Source: Saprospiraceae bacterium
GTDB lineage: Bacteria > Bacteroidota > Bacteroidia > Chitinophagales > Saprospiraceae
Assembly: GCA_020627965.1 (NCBI GenBank)
Contig: JAHDFX010000047.1
Coordinates: 1 to 33,788, forward strand
Direction: 5' to 3'
Length of the DNA: 33,788 nucleotides
In this document: piece by piece, positions 3,401 to 31,243 of the stretch
Position numbering within the stretch: the stretch's first letter is position 1
Layout: each line of letters opens with the position of its first letter
Notes under the pieces: model-generated
The model's database searches: none
Seen by the model: only the letters and a program-made list of their open reading frames with translations
What the model was told of the DNA's origin: nothing
Made by a program: the position numbers and the translations under genes

Positions 3401-6400
3401 GAACCAGGATCAGTAAGGTTTGGAGTCGTATCACTCAGACCTTGAGCAGGCATAGCAGTTACACCTGCTGGATCATCAGCATCAACAAAGTCATCACCGC
3501 CTGCATCAATAACAGCAACCGGAGTATAGCCTAAATCATCTCCCTGACCAAATACATCAGGTATAGAAACTACATAAGTAGGTTCTCCAGCACCAGCTCC
3601 AGTGTAATCTTCATCCAATAGTAAACCAGTGAATTCGTAAGCACCGTTGGCATCCGTTACATCAGTAAGCGTTACCACAGAACCGTCAGGATATGTAATT
3701 TCTAATTGTACTTCTATACCTGGTACTGGCATTTGATCAGCATCAGCTGGATCCTGAACACCATCTTCTTCAGGCTCAAACCATACAATACCACCAACAC
3801 TTCCTGGCTCAATGTAGTAACCGAAGTCAGCAGTAAAGTTACTTGCCGGGAATGCGCCACCTATTGTGACAGGATATGGATCAGTCTGGCTATTATTATC
3901 AACAGTAGGAGTACCATTTGAATGCCAGTAGCCTTCTAATACACCATTTTCATCTGTAACATCAACGATGTAGTCAGTAGCATCAGTAGCAGGCAGATTC
4001 GGGAACAGGTAGTTACCATTAGCGTCTGTTTCCGTTGTAGCAATTACAGGCTCTCCCGGATCGACAACACCATTGCCATTTTCATCATAGTATAGATCAA
4101 TAGTTACACCTTCGAAGCCTGGCTCATCATCATCAGTACCCGGGATGTTATCAAGTCCGTTAGGTCCGTTATGAATACCATCCACATTATGATCTTCCCA
4201 TATTAGATTACCAATGCTACCAGGTGAATTTGCGACATAACCAAAGTCCTGATCTAAATCTTCGCCACCAGTTGGTAGTGTAGTTTCAGATTCACTGTCG
4301 TTTCCACCATCAGGATCAACACTATTTGTTACGCCTGGAGGTAATGTAGATTCATCTACCACTACAGTATAATCATCTGCTGGTAAATTACCGAAGTAGT
4401 AATTACCATTCTCATCAGTTTCAGTAGTACCTACTGGGCTTCCATTGCTATCGAATAATTCAACAACAACACCTTCGACTCCTTCTCCTGGATCTGGTTG
4501 TCCATTACCATTAAAATCAAGGAATACTTCATTACCCAGAATTCCATCTACACCAGGCTCTTGTCCTTTAGGTGTATAACCGAAATCCTGATCCAAATCA
4601 TCAGCAGGTAGATCTGCAACCGTAGACATATCATCGTTTCCACCATCAGGATCATCTGAATTTTCAAGTCCTGCCAGTACATTATCTGTATCTGTAACAA
4701 CTACTGTATACTCTTCATCTGGCAGACCTGTAAACAGATACTCTCCATTTTCATCAGTTTCAGTAGCAGCGATAATATTACCCATATCATCTTCAAGTGC
4801 AAGAGTTACACCTGGGATACCTTCATCACCTGGGTCCTGAGTTCCGTCTCCATCAGCATCGAAGTATACAGTATCACCAATGTCATTATTATTCATTGGA
4901 TCAATGTAACCGAAATCAGCTATCAGAATAACATCACCTGGAGCTGCCAAAATAGGGTCACTCATGTTATCAGGATTCGTAGCAGGCATACCATACTCAT
5001 CAGGATCACCTGTCTGATCTTTACTAGCGATACCAGCAGAAGCAGGATCAACAACTATAATGTATTCATCAGCAGGTAGATTTGTGAAGATATATGTACC
5101 ATCTTCTTCGGTAGTGGTCGTACCTGTACCTGTATTTCCATTTTGGTCAACAGCGGCTGTAAATGGAGAATCTGTAGCAGGATCGATAACACCGTCACCA
5201 TTACTATCAGAGTAGATAGTTACTGTAACACCACCGATACCTGGCTCACCTGGATCCTGAACACCGTCAGCATCACCATCGTGCCAGATTCTGTCACCAA
5301 TTGCAGCAGTACCTGTATTTCCGTCAGGCTGTTCCCAGATATATCCGAAGTCTCCAGTTAAGTCTTCATCACCAGCATCTAGCGTTATTGTGTAACCATT
5401 AGTCTGGTTACCAAAGTCAGCACCAGGATTAACCGGATTAGTTGTTTGAGCCATTCCATCAGGAAGAGTTGTTTCATCAACTGTTACCGTATAAGTACCA
5501 GGAGCAAGATCAGAGAATAAGTAACCACCTTCTGTATCTGTTGTCATACTTCCAACAGGGTTGCCCATATCATCAGTTAGGTTAACAGTTACATTAGGAA
5601 TACCAACTTCACCTTCATCTTGCAAACCATCTTCATTTTCATCGATCCATACGTAGTTACCTAAACTTGCAGGAACTGGTATGAAACCAAAGTCATAAGA
5701 TAAGTGAGTAGGCTCATCATTAGGATCAGCTTGAGGAGTAGTATCTGTAGCTCCCTGGTCAGCGATACCTTGAACGCCATTAGGATCATCAGCATCCTCT
5801 AAGTCATTTCCGTCAGCATTAACATCTTCCGTTGCAGGTAAGTAATCTGCAGGAGGTGTTATTACTTTTATTTCATAGTATGGCTCATCACCACCACCGG
5901 CCATCGGTGTAGCATATGTACCTGAACCATCATAATCTTCATCTAATAATAGATTTTCAAAAATGTAATGACCAGTAGCATCAGTAACATCAGTTAATGT
6001 AACTACACTGCCATCAGGATAAGTAACCATCAATGTCACTTCAACACCTTCAATACCTGGCTCACCAGCATCCTGAATACCATTATCATTAGTATCTTCA
6101 AATACATAGTTACCTAAAACAGCAGGCTCAACGTAGTAACCGAAATCAGCCGTGAAATCATCAGCTGGATCTGCACCACCTAATGTTACAGCATAAGTAT
6201 CAGTTTGGCTGTTATCATCAGTATTAGGCGCACCTAAGCTGTGCCAGTAACCATTCAGTACCTGATCTTCATCAGTTACATCTACAACATAGTCGTCATC
6301 ATCCGCAGGCAAACCTGGGAATAAGTAATTACCATCTGCATCTGTAGTAGTAGAAGCGATCAGTGATTCTCCTGGATCTACAAGTCCATTACCATTATCA

Positions 6401-9400
6401 TCAGCATACAAATCAATAGTTACACCTTCGATACCTGGCTCATCATCATCATTACCTGGGATGCCATCAGGTCCGTTAGGTCCGTCATTTACACCATCAG
6501 TATTGTTATCTAACCAAACTAGTGTACCAATACTACCTGGATTATCAGCTACATAACCGAAGTCCTGATCTAAATTGATACCATCATTAGTACCATCAGG
6601 ATCATTAGCTAAATCAACAGTAGACTGTCCATCAGGAGCACTGTCAGGATCAACAGTTTGAGTAATGTTTGCAGGAAGTGTAGCTTCGATTACATCTACA
6701 GAGTAATCTTCAGCAGGATCAAGTCCTGGGAAGTAGTAATAACCATTCTCATCTGTAGCAGTAGTGCCAATAACATTACCAGCAGCATCATGCAATTCAA
6801 CAGTTACACCTTCGATACCTTCTCCTGGATCTGGAGCACCATTACCATTATAATCAAGGAATACCTGGTCTCCAATAAGACCTTCTCCTGGATCTTGATT
6901 TTCAGGAGTATATCCGAAATCTTGATCTAGATCATCAGCACCTGCGAGTGTAACTTCTGACATACCGTCATTTCCACCGTCAGGATCTTCTGTATTTACC
7001 AAATCATCCAATACATTGTCTGTATCATTAATCATTACGGTATAAGTACCATCAGGTAAACCTGGGAATAAGTACTCACCATTTTCATCAGTTACTGTAG
7101 TAGCAATAACATCACCGTTATCATCAGTTAATTTAACAGTAACACCTGCGATACCTGGCTCATTAGGATCTTGAGTCTCATCAGCATCAGCATCAAAGTA
7201 TACAGTATCACCTATATCATTATTATTAGGATTGGTATAACCAAAGTCTAAATTCGTGTAGTTGTCACCAGGGCCAATAAGAACCGGATCACTCATATTA
7301 TCAGGATTCATGGCAGTCATGCCCGGCTCATCAGGATCACCTGTCTGGTCTTTATCCTGAATACCAGCAGAGTTAGGATCTACTACTACGATATACTGAC
7401 CTGCAGGCAGACCTGTAAAGTTGTAGCTTCCGTCAGGTTCTGTAGTTGTCGTACCTGTACCTGTAGCTCCATTTTGATCAATGGCTCCAGTAAATGGAGA
7501 ATCTGTAGCAGGATCAACAACGCCATCGCCATTGCTATCACCATAAATAGTCACTGTAACTCCACCAATTCCAGCTTCGCCTAAATCCTGAACACCGTCA
7601 GCATCAGCATCACGCCAGATTCTGTCACCAAGTGCGCCTAAACCACTATTACCTGGAGCATCACCGTAGTTGTAACCAAAGTCACCAGTCATATTTTCAT
7701 CAACATCATCACCTGTTTGGTTTAGTGTAATTGCGTAGCCATTAGTTTGGTTACCAAAATCACTACCAGCATTAACCGGGTTAGTTGTTTGAGTATAGCC
7801 ATCTGGCAAAGTAGTTTCATCTACAGTTACTACATAATCACCAGCAGGTAGATCAGGGAAAATATAACCACCGTTTGCGTCAGTTACTGTAGTTTCAGTA
7901 GCATCACCAGTCAGGTTAACTGTAACACCAGGAATACCAGGCTCACCTGCATCCTGAATACCATTACCGTTTTCATCTAACCATACGTAGTTACCAATCG
8001 CACCATCACAACCTTCGATCTCAACACAAAGCTCCTGGCTAACTTCCATACTCATTTCGTCTATAGCCGTTACTGTGTAACAACCTGGATCTAAGTCTGG
8101 ATAAACAGCAGGATATTGACACTCAGGTGGGAAGTTAACAGAGTAAGAACCACCTTCTGAACCAACAACACCAGGACCAGCTACATCATCGTAGTAAATG
8201 ATCTCGATCTCATCAATACAGTTAGTAAATTCAAATAGAACACCACCGTCATTAGTATTATTTAAACCTGTATCATTAATAGATTCAAATTGATTTGTTC
8301 CTACAACAGTTACATTTGACCCCGTTAGAGTAAAATCAGCCGGAGATAAAGCAACTGGATTACCATCATTATATACATTAACAACAGCAACATCATTATT
8401 ATCAATATCATTCAGGAACATAGACAAATCACAAACATCTCTGTCGAAAGTAAATGTACGTGTCATGTTCGCTTCGCCAGCACCAGTACCACCTGTAAGT
8501 TCGTTATGGTCAACTCCTGTACGAAGTGCGAAAGTACCATTCAATTGAGAATCATCGATAATCTCTTCATCAATAGAAGCACCACCAGCAAATACAACAT
8601 CATTAATGGTCATAGTAGCTCCTCTTACAATAAAGAAGGAGTTATTAATAGCATCTTCCACAATAGAATTGTCAACACCTCCAGCAACTGGATTAGCACC
8701 AGTACCATTTAAAGTCTGGAAATTTGCCCAATTAACTTCTGTGCAAGGTGTTGGTATTGGTAATGGATCGCCATTAGAATCTTCCCAGTAGTAGAAAGGA
8801 CCACCAACTCCGCTTGCGTCCAAATCACCTGTAGTTGCAGTACAAGGATCACAGTTAGTAGCAGGATCAACAGTATAGCTTGCAGTAGCTGTGCTACCGT
8901 TTGCATCCGTTACGACTACAGTATAAGTATCAGCAGGAAGACAAGTTAAATCTTCTGGACACTGTGCAGGGAAAGCGATCGTGTATGAACCACCTTCTGT
9001 ACCTACAACACCAGGTCCAGCTACATCATCATAAAAGACAATTTCGATCTCATCAATAGGACCAGCGAAATTGAAGAAAATAGAACCATCAAGGCTAGGT
9101 CCAAGTGGAGCATCTGTGATAGATTCAAATTCATTAGCATTTACCTGATTCACATTAGAACCAGTAGAAGCAATATCACTTGCCAAAATAGGCAGTGTAG
9201 TACCCGCTAATTTAGGTCTGATAATCGCGTAATCATTGTTATCCATATCATTGAATAACATTTCCAGATTAGAAACTGGTGGGTTGAAAGTCATGGTACG
9301 AGTCATGCTCGCTGCATTCTCTCCACCTACAAGATCTGGATGATCAACACCAGTACGAAGACCGACATAAGCAGTTTGCTGGCTATTATTGATAATCTCT

Positions 9401-11559
9401 TCATCAAGCGTAGCGCCACCACTGAATGTTACTGGATTAACTGTCAGGGTAGAACCTTTGATAACATAACCTTCTGCATTAATAGCAGTTGTTACATCTA
9501 CAGCTGTTCCATTCAATGAAGCAAAAGCCTGTTCTTCACAAGGAGGATTTACAGGAGCACCATTTGAGGAAGTCCACGCATAAGAATATGGAGGATTACC
9601 ACCTGTAACTGTAAGGTCAATAGCACCATCACTGTCCGCAGGACAAGGTGCAGGCGTACAGCTCACATTTGTTCCAGTAATTGAAACTTCAGGAGGAGCA
9701 CAATTAGGAGCAGGATCAACAATAAAGCTTTCAGTGCTTGTGTTTCCAGCCGCATCAGTCACAACGACTGTATAAGTATCAGCAGGAAGACAAGTCAAGT
9801 CTTCTGGGCATTGTGCAGGGAAAGCGATCGTGTATGAACCACCTTCTGTACCTACAACACCTGGGCCAGCAACATCATCATAAAAAATAATCTCAAGCTC
9901 ATCAATAGGACCAGAGAAGTTGAAGAAGACAGAACCAACTAAAGTATTATTCAAACCAGAATCAGTAATTGACTCAAATTGATTTGTTCCAACACGTAAA
10001 ACATTAGCACCTATAGAACTAACATCTCCTGCTGGAATTGACTGAATGACTCCTCCCAATTTAGGATTAACAATAGCAACATCATTGTTATCTAAGTCAT
10101 TAAGTAACATTTCTAAATTAGAAACAGGAGGATTGAAAGTCAGGGTACGTGTAATATTAGCAGCGGCAGGGCCACCAACAATATCGCCATGATCAACACC
10201 TGTACGAAGACCAATAAAGCCTGCTTGCTGACTGTTGTCAACAATCTCTTCATCGATAGAAGCACCACCATTGAATACAGCCTGATTGATCGTCAGGGTA
10301 GAGCCTTTGATTACATAGCCCTCTGCATTAATAGCATCTTCTACAACAGTGTTGTCAGCTCCGACAACAGGATTAGCTCCTAAGCCACTCTGAGCAGCAA
10401 AAGCTTGATCTTCACAAGGAGGATTTAAAGGCGTTCCTGCTGAAGATGTCCATGCATAAGAATATGGAGCAACTCCACCTGTGACAGAAAGATTGATAGA
10501 ACCATCACTATCTGCCGGACAAGGACTAGGAGTACAGGTCACATCACCAACAATACCCGTAATTTCTGGGTTTGTACAAGCAGGGGAAGGATTAATAGTA
10601 AAACTATCAGTCGCTGTGTTTCCATCTGCATCAGTCACAACTACTGTATAAGTATCAGCAGGAAGACAAGTTAAATCTTCTGGACACTGTGCAGGGAAAG
10701 CGATCGTGTATGAACCACCTTCTGTACCTACAACGCCTGGCCCAGCTACATCATCATAAAAAATGATCTCAACCTCATCAATAGGGCCAGAGAAGTTGAA
10801 TAAGATACCACCTGTTAAAACATTATTTAAGCCTGCATCAGTAATCGACTCAAATTGGTTTGTTCCAACACGAAGAACATTAGCTCCGATAAAAGAAATG
10901 TCTCCCGAAGGAATTGACTGCGTTACTCCCCCTAATTTAGGATTAATAATCGCAACATCATTGTTATCCAAGTCATTGAATAACATCTCCAGATTAGATA
11001 CCGGAGGACTAAAAGTCAGCGTACGTGTAATATTGGCTGCGCCAACACCCCCAACAATATCGCCGTGGTCAACACCAGTACGAAGGCCGACATAAGCTGC
11101 TTGCTGACTGTTGTCAACAATCTCTTCATCGATAGAAGCACCACCACTGAATACAGCCTGATTAACCGTCAGGGTAGAGCCTTTAATTACATAGCCCTCT
11201 GCATTAATAGCATCTTCTACAACAGTGTTGTCAGCTCCGACAACAGGGTTCGCACCCAAACCCGCTAAAGCAGCAAAAGCCTGTTCTTCGCAAGGCGGAT
11301 CTACGGGCGTTCCGACCGAAGATGACCATGCATACGAGTATGGAGCAGTACCTCCTGTCACTGTGAGATCGATAGCACCATCACTGTCTGTTGGACAGGG
11401 GGCTGGATCACAACTCACATCAGAGACCGTTGCACTCAAGGTTTGTGCATTCAGATTGGCGGAAACGCCAACCAACATGCAAAACGCCAACAGTCCGGCA
11501 ACGAACTGAAAACGCCAGAGACTAATGCCTCTGTTGTGTGTAAAGGTTAGATTTCTCAT
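451..11559 (-). CDS. Giant T9SS-secreted surface protein with SprB-like and SdrD_B repeats
   Basis: 3702-residue predicted cell-surface or secreted protein. Residues 1-38 are a signal peptide (hydrophobic 18-33, cleavage probably after NLNA). Residues 40 to about 1187 hold four SprB-like units (VSC...DGAIDLTVTGG...PYSYAW...LPADTYTVVVTD), each interrupted by a module of about 200 residues. Residues 1188 to about 3510 hold 18 SdrD_B/Cna-B-like domains, each opening with (I/L)GN-x-V-W-x-D-x-(N/D)-x-(N/D)-G and closing with DFGY or a variant, rich in Asp runs that suggest calcium binding. Residues about 3513-3610 look FnIII-like (LLTWATATEEETSHFNIQKS). Residues about 3619-3702 are a type A T9SS sorting domain (FPNPTKGQMNI ... 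ASYFVVIRG). Such proteins serve in adhesion or surface-layer functions; the ligand is unknown. The gene stands alone, divergent from the GH13 gene and followed by a strong terminator. Confidence 0.93.
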   Translation of the reverse strand: MRNLTFTHNRGISLWRFQFVAGLLAFCMLVGVSANLNAQTLSATVSDVSCDPAPCPTDSDGAIDLTVTGGTAPYSYAWSSSVGTPVDPPCEEQAFAALAGLGANPVVGADNTVVEDAINAEGYVIKGSTLTVNQAVFSGGASIDEEIVDNSQQAAYVGLRTGVDHGDIVGGVGAANITRTLTFSPPVSNLEMLFNDLDNNDVAIINPKLGGVTQSIPSGDISFIGANVLRVGTNQFESITDAGLNNVLTGGILFNFSGPIDEVEIIFYDDVAGPGVVGTEGGSYTIAFPAQCPEDLTCLPADTYTVVVTDADGNTATDSFTINPSPACTNPEITGIVGDVTCTPSPCPADSDGSINLSVTGGVAPYSYAWTSSAGTPLNPPCEDQAFAAQSGLGANPVVGADNTVVEDAINAEGYVIKGSTLTINQAVFNGGASIDEEIVDNSQQAGFIGLRTGVDHGDIVGGPAAANITRTLTFNPPVSNLEMLLNDLDNNDVAIVNPKLGGVIQSIPAGDVSSIGANVLRVGTNQFESITDSGLNNTLVGSVFFNFSGPIDELEIIFYDDVAGPGVVGTEGGSYTIAFPAQCPEDLTCLPADTYTVVVTDAAGNTSTESFIVDPAPNCAPPEVSITGTNVSCTPAPCPADSDGAIDLTVTGGNPPYSYAWTSSNGAPVNPPCEEQAFASLNGTAVDVTTAINAEGYVIKGSTLTVNPVTFSGGATLDEEIINNSQQTAYVGLRTGVDHPDLVGGENAASMTRTMTFNPPVSNLEMLFNDMDNNDYAIIRPKLAGTTLPILASDIASTGSNVNQVNANEFESITDAPLGPSLDGSIFFNFAGPIDEIEIVFYDDVAGPGVVGTEGGSYTIAFPAQCPEDLTCLPADTYTVVVTDANGSTATASYTVDPATNCDPCTATTGDLDASGVGGPFYYWEDSNGDPLPIPTPCTEVNWANFQTLNGTGANPVAGGVDNSIVEDAINNSFFIVRGATMTINDVVFAGGASIDEEIIDDSQLNGTFALRTGVDHNELTGGTGAGEANMTRTFTFDRDVCDLSMFLNDIDNNDVAVVNVYNDGNPVALSPADFTLTGSNVTVVGTNQFESINDTGLNNTNDGGVLFEFTNCIDEIEIIYYDDVAGPGVVGSEGGSYSVNFPPECQYPAVYPDLDPGCYTVTAIDEMSMEVSQELCVEIEGCDGAIGNYVWLDENGNGIQDAGEPGIPGVTVNLTGDATETTVTDANGGYIFPDLPAGDYVVTVDETTLPDGYTQTTNPVNAGSDFGNQTNGYAITLNQTGDDVDENMTGDFGYNYGDAPGNSGLGALGDRIWRDADADGVQDLGEAGIGGVTVTIYGDSNGDGVVDPATDSPFTGAIDQNGATGTGTTTTEPDGSYNFTGLPAGQYIVVVDPNSAGIQDKDQTGDPDEPGMTAMNPDNMSDPVLIGPGDNYTNLDFGYTNPNNNDIGDTVYFDADADETQDPNEPGIAGVTVKLTDDNGDVIATTVTDENGEYLFPGLPDGTYTVMINDTDNVLDDLVNTEDPDGGNDGMSEVTLAGADDLDQDFGYTPENQDPGEGLIGDQVFLDYNGNGAPDPGEGIEGVTVELHDAAGNVIGTTATDENGYYYFPGLDPAEDYSVDVIEATLPANITQTVDPDSAPDGQSTVDLANDPDGTNDGINLDQDFGYVADNPGSIGTLVWLDNNTDGVNDGPNGPDGIPGNDDDEPGIEGVTIDLYADDNGNGLVDPGESLIASTTTDADGNYLFPGLPADDDDYVVDVTDEDQVLNGYWHSLGAPNTDDNSQTDTYAVTLGGADPADDFTADFGYYVEPAVLGNYVFEDTNDNGIQDAGEPGIEGVEVTLMVTYPDGSVVTLTDVTDATGHYIFENLLLDEDYDGSGTYATPMAGGGDEPYYEIKVITPPADYLPATEDVNADGNDLEDADDPNGVQGIADQGATDTTPQADPNDEPTHLSYDFGFIPVPASLGNYVWIDENEDGLQDEGEVGIPNVTVNLTDDMGNPVGSMTTDTEGGYLFSDLAPGTYTVTVDETTLPDGMAQTTNPVNPGADFGNQTNGYTITLDAGDEDLTGDFGYIWEQPDGNTGTAAIGDRIWHDGDADGVQDPGEPGIGGVTVTIYSDSNGDGVIDPATDSPFTAAVDQNGNTGTGTTTTEEDGTYIFTNLPADEYIIVVDPASAGIASKDQTGDPDEYGMPATNPDNMSDPILAAPGDVILIADFGYIDPMNNNDIGDTVYFDADGDGTQDPGDEGIPGVTLALEDDMGNIIAATETDENGEYLFTGLPDEEYTVVVTDTDNVLAGLENSDDPDGGNDDMSTVADLPADDLDQDFGYTPKGQEPGVDGILGNEVFLDFNGNGQPDPGEGVEGVVVELFDSNGSPVGTTETDENGNYYFGNLPADDYTVVVDESTLPPGVTNSVDPDGGNDSESETTLPTGGEDLDQDFGYVANSPGSIGNLIWEDHNVDGIHNGPNGLDNIPGTDDDEPGFEGVTIDLYYDENGNGVVDPGEPVIATTETDANGNYLFPNLPATDATDYIVDVTDENGVLEGYWHSNGTPTVDNNSQTDPYPVTIGGAFPASNFTADFGYYIEPGSVGGIVWFEPEEDGVQDPADADQMPVPGIEVQLEITYPDGSVVTLTDVTDANGAYEFTGLLLDEDYTGAGAGEPTYVVSIPDVFGQGDDLGYTPVAVIDAGGDDFVDADDPAGVTAMPAQGLSDTTPNLTDPGSEPEHLSYDFAYTVEEDASLGNYVWIDENQDGLQDEGEVGIPNVTVNLTDDMGNPVGSTTTDTDGGYLFSDLAPGTYTVTVDETTLPDGMAQTANPVNPGADFGNQTNGYTITLASGDENLTGDFGYIWEQPDNNTGTAAIGDKIWHDADADGVQDPGEPGIGGVTVTIYSDSNGDGTIDPATDSPVFAATDQNGNLGGTTTTEEDGTYIFTNLPAGEYVVVVDPTSAGIASKDQTGDPDEYGMPATNPDNMSDPILAAPGDVILVIDFGYIDPMNNNDIGDTVYFDANGDGTQDPGDEGIPGVTLALEDAAGNIIATTTTDENGEYLFTGLPDEAYTVEVTDTDNVLAGLENSGDPDGGNDDMSSVSDLPADDLDQDFGYTPKGQEPGVDGIIGDEVFLDFNGNGQPDPGEGIEGVTVDLFDGNGDQVGTTETDENGNYYFGNLPADDYTVVVDESTLPPGVANSVDPDGGNDSESDTTLPTAGEDLDQDFGYVPTTPGSIGTLIWEDHNANGVNDGPDGPDGTPGTDDDEPGFEGVTIDLYLDDNGNGVVDPGESVIATTTTDANGEYLFPNLPANDVDYIVDVTDEDGVLEGYWDTNGTPGADDNSQTDPYAITLGGGNPVDNPTADFGYYIEPASIGGIVWLELQTEDGIQNPNDPLDPEQPVEGVEVLLTIAYPDGTTIILTDTTDANGAYEFTGLLLDEDYNGVDGVEPTYTVSIPDFQVQATSIFGAGVTPVLPAFIDAGGDELIDADNPLGVVAIPTQGLTNTTPNLTDPGSEASNLSYDFALFGIPLPLELAYFKGEEDNCTALLTWATATEEETSHFNIQKSTTGLGFTTIGRVDAAGNSTSLLTYSYTDTQLSADNYYRLEMVDIDGTTTYTDIVNVSTDCADGNTISEIFPNPTKGQMNITFNSSFDHENAEVVIMDALGRTVQVEAITTTLGLNTINVDVTRLPQASYFVVIRGESGWYTDATQFVKLGE
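1030..3345 (-). repeat. SdrD_B super-repeat 3 (six domains, residues ~2739-3510)
   Basis: Third block, about 772 residues. Domain openings are LGNYVWIDENQDGLQD, IGDKIWHDADADGVQD, IGDTVYFDANGDGTQD, IGDEVFLDFNGNGQPD, IGTLIWEDHNANGVND and IGGIVWLELQTEDGIQN. The last domain is longer and more diverged and runs into the FnIII-like module. Confidence 0.85.
3346..5664 (-). repeat. SdrD_B super-repeat 2 (six domains, residues ~1966-2738)
   Basis: Second block, about 773 residues. Domain openings, in the same order as block 1, are LGNYVWIDENEDGLQD, IGDRIWHDGDADGVQD, IGDTVYFDADGDGTQD, LGNEVFLDFNGNGQPD, IGNLIWEDHNVDGIHN and VGGIVWFEPEEDGVQD. Long runs are identical in block 3, at both DNA and protein level. 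Confidence 0.85.
5665..7998 (-). repeat. SdrD_B super-repeat 1 (six domains, residues 1188-1965)
   Basis: First of three consecutive blocks, each of six different SdrD_B domains in the same order. Opening motifs of the six are IGNYVWLDENGNGIQD, LGDRIWRDADADGVQD, IGDTVYFDADADETQD, IGDQVFLDYNGNGAPD, IGTLVWLDNNTDGVND and LGNYVFEDTNDNGIQD. Block length is about 778 residues. This block differs more from the other two than they do from each other. Confidence 0.85.
8002..8859 (-). repeat. Divergent SprB-like unit 4 with inserted module (residues ~901-1186)
   Basis: Fourth and most diverged copy. The SprB front half is replaced by a sequence with FYYWEDSNGDPLPIP, but the insert is recognisable (ALRTGVDH, VCDLSMFLNDIDNND, YYDDVAGPGVVGSEGGSYSV). 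It ends in a modified back half, DLDPGCYTVTAIDE. It connects the SprB-like region to the SdrD_B region. Confidence 0.72.
8860..9699 (-). repeat. SprB-like unit 3 with inserted module (residues ~621-900)
   Basis: Third copy, slightly shorter: the GLGANPVVGADNTVVED segment of units 1 and 2 is replaced by the shorter NGTAVDVTTAI. The rest of the insert is conserved (GLRTGVDH, PPVSNLEMLFNDMDNND, YDDVAGPGVVGTEGG). The shared 20-nt stretch is at 8966-8985. Confidence 0.78.
9700..10569 (-). repeat. SprB-like unit 2 with inserted module (residues ~331-620)
   Basis: Second copy of the SprB-plus-insert unit, about 290 residues. It keeps every landmark of unit 1: the CTPSPCPADSDG opening, the Cys at the start of the insert, PPVSNLEMLLNDLDNND, and YDDVAGPGVVGTEGG. 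The same 20-nt stretch occurs at 9825-9844, about 866 bp from the copy in unit 1. Confidence 0.8.
10570..11442 (-). repeat. SprB-like unit 1 with inserted module (residues ~40-330)
   Basis: Coding repeat. The first half of an SprB-type repeat (residues 40-81, ending PYSYAWSS) and its second half (299-322, LPADTYTVVVTDADGN) are separated by about 215 residues running from Cys90 to Cys292/Cys298. The insert contains GLRTGVDH, PPVSNLEMLFNDLDNND and YDDVAGPGVVGTEGGSYTI. Boundaries are approximate. Units 2 and 3 match it closely, including an identical 20-nt stretch, gcagggaaagcgatcgtgta, at 10691-10710. Confidence 0.8.
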
Positions 11560-15589: not shown

Positions 15590-16978
15590 ATGAAGAGAAT
15601 ACTGACTACACTCTGTGTACTTATGTTTGTATTTCCACTACACATAAAAGCACAGACCTATCAAGACTATTTTGGTAATGGTCATTCAATTGGCATCAGT
15701 GCAAGTGGCAGTGATCTGACAAACGCCAATGACGCCATAAACTCCATTAATGGAACAGACATTCTACCCGACCTCGCAGGTGCTTCCCGCTTTCTGGCAC
15801 AAGCTACGCTAGGATATAATTATGAAACAATTGAGTATGTAAGCCAGATAGGCATCAAGGAATGGCTGGATGAACAATTATCAATGGGCTTCATCCCCTT
15901 TACTGATGGCTACGACAGCATCTACAGCGATGTAAATAATACAATAGGCTCGCTAGATGATGGTAAGGAAGATGAATATCTGGGTTATAATTTCTATGAA
16001 AAAACACTCAAAGAACAAGATTATTTGCGCCAGAAAGTAGCTTATGCACTCAATCAAATCCTTGTTGTTTCTTATGATGTTAGCAGTAATAATGACCGAA
16101 GCGATGGTAATTCAGATTATTATAATGTGCTTTACGATGGAGCTTTCGGTAATTACAGAGATATGCTTCAGGAAGTTACTATGCATCATTCTATGGGTTT
16201 ATACCTCAGTACTTTTGGCAATCGTAAAGCCGATTTCATACTAGGTACTTATCCCGATGAAAATTATGCCAGGGAGGTGATGCAACTTTTCACAATAGGG
16301 CTACATGAATTAAACAATGATGGTACGCTAAAATTAGATGAAAATGGCGATCTCATTCCCACCTACGATATAAAAGATATTCAGGAGTTATCAAAAGTAT
16401 TTACGGGATTAGGTCCGGCAGAGCGACTAGATGGGTCAACGGTCTATTATACGACAAGCCTTGGCAATCTAAATTGGAGAGTTAATATGGCCATGTATGA
16501 ACTCTATCATGACAAAACTGAAAAAGTCATGATAGATGGCACTGTACTTCCGGCAGGTCAACCAGGATTACAAGATGTCAATGATGCCCTTGATATAATT
16601 TTCAATCACCCCAATGTAGGCCCCTTCGTCAGTACCCGCCTGATTCAGCAAATGGTAAAATCCAATCCAAGTCCAGCTTATATCAATCGGGTAGCCACTG
16701 TTTTCAACAATAATGGTGCTGGAGTTCGTGGTGATATGGGGGCTGTAGTAAAAGCAATCCTGCTTGATCCTGAGGCACGCAACTGTCAATGGATAGAACA
16801 TGCCCAAAGCGGCAAACTACTACAGCCACTCGAAAGAATAATTGGGCTTTTCGTTGCCTTCGACCTGCAAACACCTAGTGGTAGAATTTATTTTAAAGAC
16901 AAAAATGCACTCCTTGACGATCTGGGCCAAGCTTTTATGGCATCACACAGTGTTTTCAATTTCTTCTCTCCATGCTGA
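15590..16978 (+). CDS. DUF1800 family secreted protein, N-terminal part (frameshifted)
   Basis: 462 residues ending prematurely. Residues 1-21 are a signal peptide (MKRILTTLCVLMFVFPLHIKA). The DUF1800 signature follows: ASRFLAQATLGYNYETIEYV and IKEWLDEQLS near residues 63-100, then NYAREVMQLFTIGLHELN around 225-242, and HSVFNFFSP just before the stop. Family members normally continue through this motif into a (V/A)PEF segment. Here the frame runs into TGA (16976-16978), while the expected continuation (MVSPEFQIL) is in the +1-shifted frame from about 16974. DUF1800 genes are typically paired with a DUF1501 gene, which is found just downstream. The biochemical function of the family is not established. 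The shift is either a real mutation, a sequencing error or recoding. Confidence 0.85.
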   Translation: MKRILTTLCVLMFVFPLHIKAQTYQDYFGNGHSIGISASGSDLTNANDAINSINGTDILPDLAGASRFLAQATLGYNYETIEYVSQIGIKEWLDEQLSMGFIPFTDGYDSIYSDVNNTIGSLDDGKEDEYLGYNFYEKTLKEQDYLRQKVAYALNQILVVSYDVSSNNDRSDGNSDYYNVLYDGAFGNYRDMLQEVTMHHSMGLYLSTFGNRKADFILGTYPDENYAREVMQLFTIGLHELNNDGTLKLDENGDLIPTYDIKDIQELSKVFTGLGPAERLDGSTVYYTTSLGNLNWRVNMAMYELYHDKTEKVMIDGTVLPAGQPGLQDVNDALDIIFNHPNVGPFVSTRLIQQMVKSNPSPAYINRVATVFNNNGAGVRGDMGAVVKAILLDPEARNCQWIEHAQSGKLLQPLERIIGLFVAFDLQTPSGRIYFKDKNALLDDLGQAFMASHSVFNFFSPC

Positions 16979-17390
16979 AAAGGAATATGTAGCGCCTAAT
17001 GATATGGTATCTCCTGAGTTTCAAATCCTCAGCTCAACCTCTAGTATAGATTACCTCAATATCATGGAATACATGCTGACAAGAAAACCTTTTGATAATA
17101 AAACATTGATTCAAGAAGACAGTACAGGAACAATGACGAATCCTGATGATGAGCCATTTCTTGATTTCAGTGATGAAATTACTATCCTCGATAATGATGG
17201 TGTCATACCAATGCTGGATAGATTAAATATACTCCTTTGCAGAGGCCAACTTTCTCCTGAATCAAAGTCTATTATCAAAAATGCCATTGACCAGTACAGA
17301 GCTGGAGTCGTTGATTTTACAAGTGAAGATGCTGTTAAAGCTGCTATCTATCTTATCATGGCCTCACCCGATTATATGATCCTTAAATAA
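16974..17390 (+). pseudogene. DUF1800 family protein, C-terminal part in shifted frame
   Basis: About 138 residues continue the DUF1800 protein in another frame: AEKEYVAPNDMVSPEFQIL, then YLNIMEYMLTRKPFDN and a helical C-terminus ending AAIYLIMASPDYMILK, the usual family ending (the last two helices and SPDYM). An ATG in this frame exists at 16842, but the residues before about 16974 do not resemble the family, so independent translation from it is unlikely. Joining the frames needs removal of one base or addition of two near 16973. The DUF1501 start lies 8 bp after this stop, so the pair is still arranged as an operon. Confidence 0.8.
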
Positions 17391-17398
17391 AAACTGAT

Positions 17399-18811
17399 AT
17401 GTCAGGTAAATTATACGAAAGAAGACAATTTTTAAGACAATTAGGACTCGGATGTGCAAGTGTTGGAGCAACAACATTATTATCCGGTATCACCAATATG
17501 GGCTTACTCAATGCTGCCGCAGCAGCCAACATGCCTTATTACCGCCCAAATAACGATTATAAAGCATTAGTCTGTATCCTACTATCAGGGGGAAATGACA
17601 GCTATAATATGTTGGTTCCAAAGGGCGATGATGAATATGCTGATTATGCAAATATCCGAACCAATCTTAAAATAGAACAAAACCAACTGCTGGAACTTAA
17701 TCCGCTTAACCCCGATGGTAAAACCTATGGATTACATCCCAGCATGCCCAATATCCAAAACATGTTCCATGCTGGTAATTTAGCTTTTATTGCAAATATC
17801 GGTGCATTGGTACAGCCTACTACTGTAAGTAGCTTCAATGCAGCTCAAAATCTTCCACTCGGTTTATTTTCTCATTCCGACCAAAAACAACATTGGCAAA
17901 CCTCAATTCCTACAGATAGAAATGCCAATGGTTGGGGAGGGCGACTCGCAGATATTTTATATACGGGCAATACCAACCAGAATGTATCCATGAATGTCTC
18001 GCTGAACGGGGTGAATATCTTTCAAACAGGTAATACCGTGCAGCCTTACAGTATTAATCACTCAGGTGGAGGTTCTGTATTACTTAATGGTGCCACCAGT
18101 AATGGGCTTTATGAGGTATTGAAAAGACAATCTCTGGATAGTCTTCTGGAGGCGAGCTATCAAAATATTCTTGAAACAGCTTACACCAATACTGTAAAAG
18201 GCTCTAAGAACAACTCTTTCGAGTTCAACGCAGCGATATCCAATGTGCCTGAATTCACTACTACTTTTAGTGATGATACATTCTCTAAAAGACTCAAGAT
18301 GGTAGCAAAAACCATAGCTGCGAGAGATACACTTGGCTTTAATCGTCAGACCTTCTTCGTTCAGTTAGGTGGTTTTGACACACATGATGATATTCTACAA
18401 AGACATAGTGATCTCATGCTTGAATTAGATACTGCCTTACAGTCTTTCTATAATGTATTGGTAGAACTGGGAATGGAAAATAATGTAACTACTTTTACGA
18501 TTTCTGATTTTGCAAGAAAACTGGTTTCTAATGGCGATGGTTCTGATCATGCCTGGGGCGGACATGCTATGGTTATGGGCGGCGCAGTAAATGGTCAGAC
18601 TATCTATGGGCAATATCCCGACCTGTACCCTGGTCATTCGCTCGACATCGGTACAGGCAGAATTATTCCAACTACTTCTTGCGATGAATATTTTGCTGAC
18701 CTGGCACTCTGGTTTGGAGCTTCTCACTCCGACTTAAACCAAATTTTACCTAACATCAATAATTTCTGGACACCAGTTGCAGGAGCTACGCCCCTTGGAA
18801 TATTGTCTTAA
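17399..18811 (+). CDS. DUF1501 family protein with Tat signal
   Basis: 470 residues. The N-terminus has a twin-arginine signal (ERRQFLRQLG, Arg8-Arg9) followed by a hydrophobic stretch, indicating export in folded form. The body matches the DUF1501 family, which is related to the sulfatase/alkaline phosphatase fold: ALVCILLSGGNDSYNMLVP (about 57-75), LFSHSDQKQHWQT (about 157-169), the VQLGGFDTHDD motif (about 322-332), and DHAWGGHAMVMGG (about 383-395). The Asp and His clusters are those expected to bind metal, but enzymatic activity for the family is not established. It lies 8 bp after the DUF1800 gene and 10 bp before the haem/dockerin-like protein gene, so these three form one transcription unit. 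Confidence 0.9.
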   Translation: MSGKLYERRQFLRQLGLGCASVGATTLLSGITNMGLLNAAAAANMPYYRPNNDYKALVCILLSGGNDSYNMLVPKGDDEYADYANIRTNLKIEQNQLLELNPLNPDGKTYGLHPSMPNIQNMFHAGNLAFIANIGALVQPTTVSSFNAAQNLPLGLFSHSDQKQHWQTSIPTDRNANGWGGRLADILYTGNTNQNVSMNVSLNGVNIFQTGNTVQPYSINHSGGGSVLLNGATSNGLYEVLKRQSLDSLLEASYQNILETAYTNTVKGSKNNSFEFNAAISNVPEFTTTFSDDTFSKRLKMVAKTIAARDTLGFNRQTFFVQLGGFDTHDDILQRHSDLMLELDTALQSFYNVLVELGMENNVTTFTISDFARKLVSNGDGSDHAWGGHAMVMGGAVNGQTIYGQYPDLYPGHSLDIGTGRIIPTTSCDEYFADLALWFGASHSDLNQILPNINNFWTPVAGATPLGILS

Positions 18812-18821
18812 AAGCCATATC

Positions 18822-21680
18822 ATGAAAAGAACATATAAATTATATAACATATTTCTCATTTTTATTACCTGTCTTTTTTATTTTTCAAATCTTCAGGCAC
18901 AATGCATAGATAATGGGAATGTCTGGAATAAAAGCTGGGAATCTTGCCAGGTTTCTGCCAGCCCTAATCCCAACAGAGGTACAACACACTGGCTGCTTTA
19001 CGAATTTGATGAAGCTCAAAACATTGATAGTACCTATATCTGGAATGCCAATAAAACAGGCGAAAGTCAAAACGGTCTGAAAAATGTTATTATCGACTAT
19101 AGTGTGGATGGAAACACATGGACAGAGCTAGGTAGTTTTACCTTTCCTCAAGCTACAGAACTGACCGATTACGAAGGCTTTCTCGGTCCGAATTTCGGAG
19201 GTGTTTTTATTAAAAAAATATTAATAACGATTGTCAGCACACATGGAGATGGCACCTGTGCTTCTATTGCTGAACTCCAATTCCAAGTCAATAAAGATGC
19301 TTGTTACGGTATAATAGATGTCTGCGGAAATTGTAATGGACCAGGTGAAACAATCTGGTATCTGGATGCAGATAATGACGGACAAGGAAGCATCAACAAT
19401 ACCTTATCTAGCTGTACTCAGCCTTCCGGATATGTAAATAATGCAGATGATTATTGCGACAATGGATTGCCCGGTTGGAATGAAATACGCCGTATTTTTG
19501 AGGACAACGGCTGTATGGGCTGTCATGGTAATAATGCTTCGGGCGGATTAAACCTGAACACTTATGAGTCTGTTAATCAGGGAGGAAATAAATGTGGTAC
19601 TAATATGCTTACAGGTACAACTTTAGTGGATATTATCATGATCGACGGTTATGCAGGTTGTGGAACGCCTATAGGTATCCCTTCAATGAATCAGCGTGTA
19701 GGTGGTAGTATGGATAATGAAGAGTTAGCGCTATTACAAAGCTGGATAGATGCAGGTGCGCCCGAAGATTGTAATTGCCTGGCAGGCGCTGCCGATACAG
19801 ATAATGACGGAACATGCGATGCTATTGACAACTGCCCAGGCTTCGACAATACCTTGATAGGTTTAGCTTGTAATGATGGCAATGATTGTACTGAAAATGA
19901 TGTTTGGACAACAAATTGTAATTGCGCTGGCACACCTAAAACAGATTCTGACAATGATGGCGTTTGTGATGTTATGGATGCTGCCCCTACCAATTCCTGT
20001 ACAGCAGACGGAATCATTGATGGCATAGAACCTAATGATTGGGTAATGCTTCCAACCAACGATTGTGATAATGATTATATCAATAATGCCGGTGGCGATC
20101 TTTCAGATTTTAATGCCTGTATAGATAACGTTGGGCAGGTCAATTCTGTAAAATGTAATTGTGAAAATAATAAGCTTATAGCTGGTGGTCGATTTAAAGG
20201 AGAAAATGGTGTAGGGGGGCTTGAAGAAGCTAGTGATGGTATGCCTGATGGGCGATTTACTGGTAATATTAGTGGTACAAATGATGATCTCACATTGACT
20301 TTCCCTACAATGGCCGTTGGTGATGAAATTTGCCTCACTGTGAGTTTTTCAGATCCTGCCGGAAAGTTAAATCTTGATGTCAATTTTCTTTCTTTTACAT
20401 TTTTAAATGAAACAGGTTTAGTAGATGAAGCCCAGGAATTTTGTTTTGAGGTACTTCAGCCTGGCCCTCAGGAAGTTGTTATAAGAGATGAAGGTTCGGG
20501 AGTAATACTGCTTGATGGTTCTACCTTTGAATATTGTGAATGTGCAGAAAATGATCCTAAATTCAACACTCCTGAGTGCCAGTGCAATGATAATACTTTG
20601 ACCGAAGGTGGAGTTTTTGTTTCTAGTATTGGTATGTCTCTTGGCGAAAACGCTGCTAGTTTGCCGGATAGTATTTTGTCGGGATTTCTTGGTAATAACG
20701 ACTCTTTAATTTTAAGCTACCCTAATATTATTGATGAAGGAGAAATCTGTATCGTTATGGGTTTCAGTGATTCTTTAGGATTTGCTACGATAAAAGTAGG
20801 AGACGAGCAATATTTTGTTCCCAATAGATTACACCTTGTCGATTATGAACTACAGGAGTTCTGCTTCCCCATAAGCTCTACTCCGGCTCCAGAAGTTTTA
20901 ATCATGGAAATTGGTTCGGGAGGTCTAAAAATAGATGGCTCTTATTATAATTACTGTACAGCCTGTCTGGATGTACAACTTGCAGTAATGCTGGAAGGCC
21001 CTTTCATGGAAACTACAGGTATGATGAATACTTTTCAAAATTCAACACTGGGTCTACTCCCCGGACAAATTCCATATAACATTCTGGTTCCACCTACCCC
21101 ACCCGGACAACCTTATAATACAACTCCCTGGAATTATTTCGGCACAGAAGGAAACAACTGGACCAATCTGGATTATACGCCTGATGTAGTAGATTGGGTA
21201 CTTATCTCTTTCAGAACAGGAATAGAAAAAAGTACAGAGGTGGGCAGAACAGCAGGTTTACTAAAAAAAGATGGCAGTATTTTCTTACCCGAATGTGGAT
21301 TACGGGATACTGGTCTAAGTGAAGTATATATAGTTATTGAGCATCGTAATCATATGGGAATTATGAGCCCTAGTCCGGTTCCCATTGTAAATGGTATGTT
21401 GACTTATGATTTTAGAGAAGCTGACAGCTTTAAAGATGCAACCAGCATAGGACAAATACAACTGGCGAATGGTCAATGGGCTATGCTTGGAGGAGATTGT
21501 GATCAAACAGATTTTCCAAGTTACGATATTACAGGAAATGATAAAACACTATGGAATCTCGACAATGGACAGTTCAACCAATATCTGAATACAGATCTCA
21601 ATTTGGACGGCGATGTCAATGGTGCCGATAAACTAATCTGGGATAAAAATAATGGTTTCTCCTCAAGAGTGCCCAAATAA
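18822..21680 (+). CDS. Secreted mosaic protein: discoidin-like, CXXCH haem module, dockerin-like end
   Basis: 952 residues from the ATG at 18822, chosen because MKRTYKLYNIFLIF opens a normal signal peptide (to about residue 26, NLQA); an in-frame ATG at 18777 overlaps the DUF1501 gene and would put a polar extension in front. Order of modules: F5/8C-like domain (about 27-150); a WYLDADNDGQG calcium-type repeat (about 180); a cytochrome c-like module with CMGCH (about 230) and a downstream IPSMNQRVGG Met plus LLQSWIDAGAPEDC; thrombospondin type 3-like Asp repeats (about 325-430); two related domains of about 125 residues (445-575, 585-713); a Bacteroidota-type C-terminal region (VVDWVLISFRTG, VIEHRNHMGIMS); and a dockerin-like DLNLDGDVNGADKLIW ending. 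No T9SS sorting domain is visible. Third gene of the DUF1800-DUF1501 operon. Confidence 0.85.
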   Translation: MKRTYKLYNIFLIFITCLFYFSNLQAQCIDNGNVWNKSWESCQVSASPNPNRGTTHWLLYEFDEAQNIDSTYIWNANKTGESQNGLKNVIIDYSVDGNTWTELGSFTFPQATELTDYEGFLGPNFGGVFIKKILITIVSTHGDGTCASIAELQFQVNKDACYGIIDVCGNCNGPGETIWYLDADNDGQGSINNTLSSCTQPSGYVNNADDYCDNGLPGWNEIRRIFEDNGCMGCHGNNASGGLNLNTYESVNQGGNKCGTNMLTGTTLVDIIMIDGYAGCGTPIGIPSMNQRVGGSMDNEELALLQSWIDAGAPEDCNCLAGAADTDNDGTCDAIDNCPGFDNTLIGLACNDGNDCTENDVWTTNCNCAGTPKTDSDNDGVCDVMDAAPTNSCTADGIIDGIEPNDWVMLPTNDCDNDYINNAGGDLSDFNACIDNVGQVNSVKCNCENNKLIAGGRFKGENGVGGLEEASDGMPDGRFTGNISGTNDDLTLTFPTMAVGDEICLTVSFSDPAGKLNLDVNFLSFTFLNETGLVDEAQEFCFEVLQPGPQEVVIRDEGSGVILLDGSTFEYCECAENDPKFNTPECQCNDNTLTEGGVFVSSIGMSLGENAASLPDSILSGFLGNNDSLILSYPNIIDEGEICIVMGFSDSLGFATIKVGDEQYFVPNRLHLVDYELQEFCFPISSTPAPEVLIMEIGSGGLKIDGSYYNYCTACLDVQLAVMLEGPFMETTGMMNTFQNSTLGLLPGQIPYNILVPPTPPGQPYNTTPWNYFGTEGNNWTNLDYTPDVVDWVLISFRTGIEKSTEVGRTAGLLKKDGSIFLPECGLRDTGLSEVYIVIEHRNHMGIMSPSPVPIVNGMLTYDFREADSFKDATSIGQIQLANGQWAMLGGDCDQTDFPSYDITGNDKTLWNLDNGQFNQYLNTDLNLDGDVNGADKLIWDKNNGFSSRVPK

Positions 21681-28439: not shown

Positions 28440-29354
28440 TTAGCCTTCGAGTTTGAAACGCACCGGCAGGTTGAACTGAACACGTACTGGTTGATTTCTT
28501 TGCTTACCAGGTGTCCATTTTGGCATTTGCTGTACAATACGCAGGGCTTCTTTTCCGCAACCTCCTCCTAAATCTCTAAGCAATTTAGGATCGGTTACAG
28601 AACCGTCTTTTTCCACTACGAAACTGACTACTGCCATACCCTCAATACCGTTTTCACGGGCAATTGTAGGGTACTTGATGTTTTTGTAAATGAACTCCAA
28701 CATCTTTTTCTCGGCACATTTTTTCTTCTCAGCATCATCCCCCCCAACGTCTTCGCATCCAGGGAAACGAGGCATTTGTTGTACGATGGTGAAGATTTCA
28801 TCCGTTTCCTCTTCTGGCTCCGGCTCTGGTGGAGGCGGTGGCGGTGGAGGTGGCGGAGGTGGTGCTTCTTTCTTTGGTGGTGGCGGAGGTGGTTCCTCTA
28901 CTACCGTTTCTTCTTCTACAGTTTGATCTTCAAACTCTATTTCTTCTTCCACTTCTTCTTCCGGTACTTCTTCTATAACCGGTGGTGGTGGAGGCGGTGG
29001 AGGCGGTGGCGGTTCCGCTGTACGTGGAGGTTCGATCTCCAAGTCATCGGGAAGCTCCATCGCATCATCCGGGATATATACTTCACGCTCGTAAGTAGTC
29101 CAGCTAAAAGCTAGTAAAGTCAGTAAAATCGAACCGACCAAACCTGACAGCAAGAATGTATAAGTCAACTTGAAAGCACTAACTTCAGGATACTTACGTG
29201 CAAACTTCACATTTCGGTCATCCGCATACTTACTTCTCAAGTCCTGTGTACCAGCTTTAGTCAAACTATTTTTAACCAGTAAAATAACACCGATTATAAC
29301 AGCTAATACTAAGAGGAGAAATAACCCGAATCCTAATCCAGAGATTTCTAACAT
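28440..29354 (-). CDS. TonB family energy transducer, two-membrane-segment type (paralog 1)
   Basis: 304 residues. TonB couples the ExbB/ExbD proton-driven motor to outer-membrane receptors across the periplasm. Two hydrophobic segments are seen, at about 7-28 (GLGFGLFLLLVLAVIIGVIL) and about 67-84 (FLLSGLVGSILLTLLAFSW), the second followed by TTYERE as in ordinary Bacteroidota TonB. A spacer with two long polyproline stretches and Glu-rich segments spans about 108-185. The C-terminal TonB_C domain (about 190-304) has MPRFPGCED, IKYPTIARE, GMAVVSFVVEKDGSV, GGGCGKEALR and PVRVQFNLPVRFKL. The extra N-terminal membrane segment is unusual. No ExbBD gene is adjacent. Downstream of vanZ by 31 bp. 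Confidence 0.92.
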   Translation of the reverse strand: MLEISGLGFGLFLLLVLAVIIGVILLVKNSLTKAGTQDLRSKYADDRNVKFARKYPEVSAFKLTYTFLLSGLVGSILLTLLAFSWTTYEREVYIPDDAMELPDDLEIEPPRTAEPPPPPPPPPPPVIEEVPEEEVEEEIEFEDQTVEEETVVEEPPPPPPKKEAPPPPPPPPPPPPEPEPEEETDEIFTIVQQMPRFPGCEDVGGDDAEKKKCAEKKMLEFIYKNIKYPTIARENGIEGMAVVSFVVEKDGSVTDPKLLRDLGGGCGKEALRIVQQMPKWTPGKQRNQPVRVQFNLPVRFKLEG

Positions 29355-30334: not shown

Positions 30335-31243
30335 TCACCCACTCAATTTAAAACGTACAGGTAGATTGAATTGCACTCTTACCGGTCTTCCGTTTTGCTT
30401 ACCGGGCACCCATTTGGGCATTTCATTAACTACGCGTAGTGCTTCTTTTCCGCAGCCTCCTTCTAAGTCGCGCATGATGGTGGCATTACTTACAGAGCCG
30501 TCTTTTTCTATAACAAAGCTGACAACGGCCATACCCTGAATATCAATCTCACGGGCTATCGTGGGGTATTTTATGTTCTTGTAAACGAATTCCATCATTT
30601 TTTGCTCTGCGCATCTTTTAGTTTCCTGATTTATAAACCCATTATCTTCACAACCTGGAAAGCGCGGCATTTCCTGAACGAAAATTCTAATTTCATTATC
30701 GACCTTTTCTTCCTCTATCTCCATTGGAGGAGGAGCTTTTACTACGATCGTCCCTTTCTTTGGTGGCGGCGGTGGTGGAGGCGGTGCTTCCACGGCTGTC
30801 TCTTCTTCTACTGTCGTATCTTCAAACTCTATATCTTCCACTTCCTCTTCTGGCTCTACCTCTTCTATAACAGGAGGCGGAGGAGGAGGCGGTGGGGGGG
30901 GAGGTTCCGGATATGTTATTGGAGGAGTAGTTAACAGTTCTATCGGCAAATCACATCCAGTGACAACATATTCTTCCCGCTCATACGTCGTCCAGTTAAA
31001 AGCAAATAAGCATAGTACCAGCGATGTTGCCAGTCCAAAACGTAGCATCATCGGCACGAATTTGAATACATTAACTTCCGGGTATTGCTTTATAAAAGTG
31101 GGGTGATTCAAGTCTTTCCCTTCGGAAAGTTTCCTGAGCCCTTGTTGCATCAGTTGTCGACGAACCAGCAGGATGATCCCGCTTATAATGAGTCCTACGA
31201 CGACTAAGCCTATTAAAAGTTTAATTCCAGTGATCTCTATCAT
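30335..31243 (-). CDS. TonB family energy transducer, two-membrane-segment type (paralog 2)
   Basis: 302 residues, clearly paralogous to the TonB protein at 28440. Two membrane segments: about 7-27 (IKLLIGLVVVGLIISGIILL) and about 66-85 (FVPMMLRFGLATSLVLCLFAF), the latter followed by NWTTYEREE. Linker sequence before the second segment (FIKQYPEVNVFKF) matches the other paralog (FARKYPEVSAFKL). Two proline-rich stretches follow, then TonB_C (about 190-302) with MPRFPGCED, IKYPTIAREIDIQGMAVVSF, GGCGKEALRV and NLPVRFKLSG. A coding run of eight G (plus strand 30894-30901) lies in the first proline tract. Probably partners with ExbBD encoded elsewhere. The two paralogs flank gcvH and vanZ. Confidence 0.92.
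   Translation of the reverse strand: MIEITGIKLLIGLVVVGLIISGIILLVRRQLMQQGLRKLSEGKDLNHPTFIKQYPEVNVFKFVPMMLRFGLATSLVLCLFAFNWTTYEREEYVVTGCDLPIELLTTPPITYPEPPPPPPPPPPPVIEEVEPEEEVEDIEFEDTTVEEETAVEAPPPPPPPPKKGTIVVKAPPPMEIEEEKVDNEIRIFVQEMPRFPGCEDNGFINQETKRCAEQKMMEFVYKNIKYPTIAREIDIQGMAVVSFVIEKDGSVSNATIMRDLEGGCGKEALRVVNEMPKWVPGKQNGRPVRVQFNLPVRFKLSG

Follow-up and report, generated by a model that had tools for sequence, protein, structure and literature searches.

Do the genes of two widespread families, DUF1800 and DUF1501, belong together with a third, secreted protein as one system? This question is raised by contig JAHDFX010000047.1 of a Saprospiraceae bacterium, a stretch of 33,788 bp that we call the window and that is one entire contig of a draft genome (6.43 Mb, 409 contigs). 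On the plus strand of the window, a DUF1800 gene and a DUF1501 gene are followed by a gene for a 952-amino acid secreted protein. We found that the linkage and the order of these three genes are strict across many genomes, and that they are genuinely one unit of three genes, drawn from known domain families and undescribed as far as our literature searches reach. The features of the cluster are listed below; L052 is a locus of the comparison set used for the alignments.

15590..16978, plus strand: first part of DUF1800, 462 amino acids; PF08811 E 3.8e-67, reaching only positions 1-337 of the 419 of the profile; 66% identity to the L052 homologue over 462 aligned columns.
16979..17390, plus strand: remainder of DUF1800 in another frame (open reading frame 16842-17390), aligned at 57% identity with the C-terminal 148 residues of L052 DUF1800.
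17399..18811, plus strand: DUF1501 with an RR twin-arginine (Tat)-type signal (TIGR01409) and, in its model, an alkaline-phosphatase-superfamily fold; PF07394 E 3.2e-35; matches to NPP and sulfatase structures in the PDB.
18822..21680, plus strand: third gene, an open reading frame for the secreted 952-amino acid protein; the same gene family stands beside DUF1501 in other genomes.
18903..19292, plus strand: discoidin-like (F5/8 type C) domain, which is what stays constant in the third gene (alignment A1).
19458..19772, plus strand: single c-type haem domain (CMGCH), PSCyt1-like, with a conserved Met-Asn motif (alignment A4).
20964..21680, plus strand: C-terminal domain of 238 amino acids ending in SSRVPK, sorting- or anchoring-like, not specific to the operon; full-length copies on other contigs.

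An earlier sequence-only reading of this DNA had proposed a DUF1800-DUF1501-third gene cluster, and the tight cluster is borne out by the Pfam matches: PF08811 scored 227.7 bits on DUF1800 (gathering threshold 26.1) and PF07394 scored 122.5 bits on DUF1501 (gathering threshold 27). The gap between DUF1800 and DUF1501 is 8 bp, and the ATG of the third gene (18822) stands 10 bp past the DUF1501 stop, as that reading had said. The Tat signal model gave 17.0 bits on DUF1501 (cut-off 16.7), and the first part of DUF1800 has a Sec-type signal peptide by inspection. What had been overlooked is a frameshift in DUF1800 near 16975. The frame ends at a stop (16976-16978) directly after the conserved FNFF motif; the homologue's final 148 residues find their counterpart in a different frame, so the window DUF1800 carries a single frameshift, which could be a mutation or an assembly error. 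Other DUF1800 copies are intact.

Linkage was assessed in two sets, 40 genomes and 62 loci from a wider named collection, which overlap in that the G003 locus and L052 are apparently one record. In the 40 genomes the discoidin domain of the third gene gave 42 matches in 16 genomes. Thirty-seven of them lay no more than 3 kb from a DUF1501 on the same strand and 34 no more than 6 kb from a DUF1800, as counted on subsets of the full DUF1501 and DUF1800 match tables; for the remaining five, the contig extends no further than 1262 bp in the direction in which the pair would be expected. The sequence-only reading was to fall if the third gene proved unlinked to the pair in other genomes; the linkage held, and the five other domains lie at contig ends. 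The 62 loci were retrieved via the discoidin domain, and their pair counts are therefore conditional on that domain. A same-strand DUF1501 was present within 3 kb in 52 of them, and at one locus (L095) the domain gene stands just ahead of DUF1800; at five loci a contig end cuts the neighbourhood short, and at four others (L049, L076, L098 and L107) no DUF1501 was in range. Gene clustering over the 62 loci found the three families in 60, 52 and 51 loci and the next commonest family in four.

The pairs of the window's own genome were sorted by sequence and architecture into three kinds: kind A is that of the window, with a third gene containing the discoidin domain; in kind B the DUF1501 proteins are longer, and three of the five have their own type IX sorting domain; and kind C consists of short pairs. 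Around 51 full A-type DUF1501 genes, DUF1800 was found upstream in 47 cases, the domain gene downstream in 46 and the domain gene before DUF1800 in six. The median gaps in the operon, measured from the first ATG, were 32 and 23.5 bp. One A-type pair without a discoidin gene was found (G018:C46). Furthermore, the distance matrices of the three genes correlate (0.90, 0.76 and 0.75; 0 of 2000 permutations each), with shared ancestry left in these values. The operon spans Saprospiraceae and neighbouring Bacteroidota, with several copies per genome, and the window itself falls in or near Saprospiraceae by its related loci. The cluster is thus beyond chance, as its linkage repeats in tens of loci.

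What is constant in the third protein is a single domain. Six third-gene paralogues of the own genome have in common only an N-terminal or internal domain of ~130 residues, and this domain is a divergent F5/8 type C (discoidin) domain, matched by PF00754 (F5_F8_type_C) at E <= 0.001 in 47 of 62 family members (best E 6e-15). These 62 proteins (alignment A7) were drawn from the window protein and 68 frames, omitting cut, masked and split frames. The discoidin-like domain that had been read from the window protein is constant across the family; the window copy itself, at 22.2 bits (E 1.6e-4), falls under the curated cut-off of 28.2. In addition, a profile of the domain matched a glycosyl hydrolase module among the solved structures (E 3.2e-4). 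The remainder of the third proteins varies: a type IX sorting domain is present in 31 of 62 and a 3-coathanger tail in 18 of 62, and other parts are PA14, MopE, fn3 and haem domains. The smallest third protein, ~245 amino acids long, consists of a signal peptide, the discoidin domain and a sorting tail. These results collectively show that the third gene is defined by its discoidin-like domain.

The window protein ends in a DxNxDG-type sequence within its 238-residue C-terminal domain, and a dockerin-like end had been proposed for it. The basis for this is weak: no dockerin model matched the window third protein or its tail, the tail had no Pfam match, and a GC-type dockerin was matched by one of 62 relatives (E 0.0084). 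The final 48 residues of this tail have 46 matches across the own genome, which marks it as a general tail and not as part of the three-gene system. Because a type IX tail occupies the same position in orthologous third genes, the 238-residue tail may be a substitute signal for sorting or anchoring. Domains of this kind, ending in SSRVPK or similar, also close many giant secreted proteins of the own genome.

We next consider what DUF1501 may be. A sequence search of the solved structures with the DUF1501 profile gave one match (E 0.022), judged irrelevant, and no similarity was detected between this profile and NPP-family proteins. A structure model built with 52 sequences (mean predicted local distance difference test score, pLDDT, 78.7; predicted template-modelling score, pTM, 0.79) nevertheless shows an alkaline-phosphatase-superfamily fold, with matches to human steroid sulfatase (Foldseek E 1.5e-6) and to the NPP phosphodiesterase ENPP1 (Z 18.6, root-mean-square deviation 3.1, 243 residues aligned). 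A relation to phosphatases and sulfatases, proposed earlier from the sequence, thus finds support in the model. The fold is common to NPPs, sulfatases, LtaS and EptA-type transferases; DUF1501 differs from that superfamily in an apparently modified ligand set and in an identity of ~11%. A putative site, placed from the order of strands and helices in the model, would comprise D67 past strand 1, S158, D327, H329, D/E370 and D383-H384, with S158 at the helix start where NPPs carry their nucleophile. H159, D327, H329, D/E370, F371, R373 and H384 were present in 91 of 91 DUF1501 proteins and D383 in 90; twelve of these proteins, termed 'BC', were chosen by a pattern containing the D/E-F and D-H motifs, which are conserved there by construction, whereas D67, S158, D327 and H329 lie outside this pattern. 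D67 and S158 were found in all 71 DUF1501 proteins of the DUF1800-type groups, in contrast to the 20 of 20 from PSD1-type loci, which have S/A/C at the D67 position and N/L at the S158 position. The DUF1501 signature thus follows the partner.

PSD1 is the partner family of a related arrangement. Among the relatives, the highest-scoring DUF1501 genes mostly adjoin proteins with PSCyt1, PSCyt2 and PSD1; PSD1 was present in 10 of 40 genomes and gave no match in the own genome. For DUF1800 itself, a sequence search of the solved structures with its profile gave no match. Its model (L052 copy, 617 residues, 48 sequences; pLDDT 85.4, pTM 0.84), submitted whole to a fold search, gave a best E of 0.13 and no Z >= 2 among 876 chains; this blank, obtained with an undivided model, is no evidence of a new fold. 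A profile of 47 diverse DUF1800 proteins aligned with the start of PSD1 at an hhalign score of 47.0, whereas none of the 150 block-shuffled controls exceeded 30.2 and the reversed profile scored 12.2, and the domains alone scored 47.1 compared with a maximum of 30.9 in 100 controls. The C-terminal halves of DUF1800 and PSD1 had no similarity, and the DUF1800 N-terminus compared with PSCyt2 (27.4; shuffle maximum 28.0) is suggestive only. The similarity recurs but is modest; a remote kinship of DUF1800 and PSD1 is probable from these profiles, though not proven.

With DUF1800 as a distant relative of PSD1, the operon is likely a re-partitioned version of the planctomycete-type PSCyt1-PSCyt2-PSD1 (PF07635, PF07583, PF07587) plus DUF1501 module, in which the haem would have shifted from the PSD1 protein to the third protein. 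In that module, found in planctomycetes and relatives, as in the operon, DUF1501 lies downstream of its partner. Both have a single-haem domain, PSCyt1 there and one that is weakly PSCyt1-like here, and a sugar-binding-type domain, there Laminin_G_3 (seen in two PSD1 proteins out of three) and here discoidin. A DUF1800 protein of the own genome that has an F5/8 type C domain can be likened to the sugar-binding-type insert of the PSD1-type partner. In contrast, DUF1800 here replaces PSCyt2-PSD1; the haem that is fused to PSD1 there is here on a separate secreted gene or missing; a discoidin gene is added; and DUF1501 has D67/S158 here and S/N there.

The literature that could be reached, from which subscription journals are mostly absent, gave no function for DUF1800 or DUF1501, and that on DUF1800, DUF1501, PSCyt, DUF1553 and DUF1549 gave no description of a discoidin third gene beside the pair. 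For the PSCyt modules, one paper states that their function is not known and suggests a role in carbohydrate metabolism (PMC5615132). A DUF1800-DUF1501 operon has been reported next to bacterial chitin synthase genes that were acquired horizontally (PMC5122149). It has the same two families as the present operon and a twin-arginine motif on DUF1501, but it is accompanied by a chitin synthase and a sugar epimerase, neither of which recurs among the neighbours here, where the discoidin gene stands instead. A study of calcium-induced biomineralisation lists DUF1800 among the domains enriched in up-regulated genes of Emiliania huxleyi (PMC7563939); the occurrence of DUF1800 in this alga indicates that the family is also present in eukaryotes.

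How might the three proteins act together? We tentatively favour, at rather less than even confidence, a re-partitioned module in which an extracellular glycoconjugate is the target of a hydrolase or transferase exported via Tat, of a partner resembling PSD1 and of a protein that binds at the surface. The architecture is well supported; the substrate and the chemistry we infer. DUF1501 would be exported in its folded state and act as a metal-dependent hydrolase or transferase of the phosphate or sulfate ester type, with DUF1800 as its helical periplasmic partner. The third protein would be exported to the surface, as the type IX sorting domain in half of the family suggests, where its lectin-like domain may bind the glycan or glycoconjugate processed by the pair. 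In one clade, the haem could provide an electron-transfer step or a sensor. An extracellular polymer is a plausible target.

Several results weigh against this proposal. No glycan enzyme recurs among the neighbours of the operon in the gene clustering of the 62 loci. No type IX domain was recognised by the libraries in the A-type DUF1501 and DUF1800 proteins scanned, and the pair and the third protein may be in different compartments. Judged by topology, the second-strand histidine of the NPPs appears to be replaced in DUF1501 by F371. The similarity of DUF1800 to PSD1 was also less clear in other comparisons: with the A-type profile by itself E was 0.056 and the register differed, the B type by itself gave E 0.022 and the C type by itself E 0.0039, and a phylum-wide repeat scored 36.7 (shuffle maximum 37.1 in 80) or, with all sequences, 35.1 (shuffle maximum 32.2), both in the same register. 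Haem (CxxCH) is missing from the third protein in 29 of 50 loci. Finally, the window DUF1800 is not intact, the frame change near 16975 being visible both in the sequence and in the alignment with the L052 homologue; with its frame broken, this copy may be inactive or mis-assembled.

A broader proposal, to which we give the same cautious weight, is that DUF1800 and PSD1 descend from one ancestor. The DUF1800-DUF1501 pairs and the PSCyt/PSD1-DUF1501 modules would then be two branches of one ancient exported machine, made of an alkaline-phosphatase-type enzyme and a helical partner of unsolved fold. The haem c and sugar-binding domains would be fused in one branch, whereas in the other they would reside on a protein of their own that is secreted by the type IX route, and the DUF1501 signature would switch with the partner (GGND...SH versus GGPSQ...NH). 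No activity is known for DUF1501, DUF1800 or PSD1, three widespread families of which a genome often has many copies. The fixed third component, the DUF1501 fold, the partner-specific signatures and the possible common origin of DUF1800 and PSD1 make three unknowns into one testable system, and the minimal operon, now defined, can be used for expression or deletion.

An alternative that we regard as unlikely, yet as the strongest of the competing explanations, is that the pair serves to mature the third protein or to display it at the surface: while this protein is still in the periplasm, ahead of type IX export, its discoidin domain would be modified or escorted by DUF1501 and DUF1800, and the rest of it would be cargo. 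This would account for a discoidin domain that alone is constant beside a remainder that varies from type IX, 3-coathanger, PA14, MopE and fn3 domains to haem. It also agrees with domain distances that track those of the pair (r 0.76 and 0.75, relatedness not removed). However, the own-genome DUF1800 at contig C402 bears an F5/8 type C domain of its own, which fits substrate binding equally well, and other own-genome DUF1800-DUF1501 pairs have no discoidin partner, as is also the case for the A-type pair G018:C46.

The haem domain raises a second alternative, an extracellular electron-transfer or oxidative polymer-modifying system with the haem as its working centre. CxxCH segments were found 29 times in the 68 third-gene frames, and the window protein has one CxxCH (CMGCH). 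In alignment A4 (26 of 30 haem segments) CxxCH is invariant, and M77 and N78 are conserved in at least 90%. Similarity to PSCyt1 is weak: 20 of 26 haem-domain members matched at E <= 0.1 (best 2.1e-4), and the window domain scored 17.8 bits (cut-off 22). In a DUF1501 tree of 50 loci having a full DUF1501 plus a third gene nearby, haem was present in 21 of the 24 proteins that make up a single supported clade and in 0 of 26 elsewhere, and the haem label required four changes, compared with 16.1 in shuffles (0 of 500 as low). Being confined to one clade, the haem is a stable add-on of that clade. The single-haem module of the sequence-only reading is thus real but not defining, as it is absent outside essentially one clade. 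Haem plus dockerin, considered as the hallmark of the system, was rejected, with haem in 21 of 50 loci and the tail genome-wide. The conserved CxxCH and Met ligand candidates, the retention of haem in 21 of 24 members of its clade and the fusion of PSCyt1 to the DUF1501 partner in related modules would all suit a haem-centred system. We nevertheless consider it improbable, given the 29 of 50 operons without CxxCH in the third protein, a minimal operon of discoidin plus type IX tail only, and the presence of just one haem, beside whose gene no redox enzyme recurs in the 62 loci. Loose hitch-hiking of unrelated surface genes, as decaying copies of an expanded family without joint function, is very improbable, since order and tight spacing are kept across Bacteroidota families while other neighbours change and the linkage counts already disfavour it, even though A copies of the own genome are damaged.

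The own genome gave 15 matches for DUF1501 and 16 match rows for DUF1800; two of the DUF1800 rows come from the two halves of a single frame. The A copies that look damaged are that of the window, with the DUF1800 frameshift, and those on C205 and C9, with truncated DUF1501. At the latter (L043, C9), the A-type DUF1501 breaks off near an apparent integrase fragment recognised by eye; DUF1501 is also truncated at L042 (C205). The operons on C237 and C353 both break off within DUF1501 where the contig ends, and the two may belong to a single locus. The B-type DUF1501 proteins of L038 and L040 have both an RR start of the Tat type and a type IX sorting domain, which suggests Tat export followed by surface secretion.

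In the DUF1800 protein on C402 (L035:7951-10197) the F5/8 type C domain (PF22633 E 7.9e-14) lies ahead of the DUF1800 domain. CotH kinase-like proteins with lamin-tail (LTD) domains flank the A-type operons L035 (C402) and L037 (C353), and an LTD protein is a flanking gene at L044 (C237). CotH-type neighbours were rejected as a part of the system, with a CotH match in one of 62 other loci. Elsewhere in the window, the minus strand encodes a repetitive secreted protein of 3702 amino acids with many similar domain repeats (451-11559) and two similar TonB-like proline-rich proteins, named by eye, that lie close together (28440-29354 and 30335-31243).

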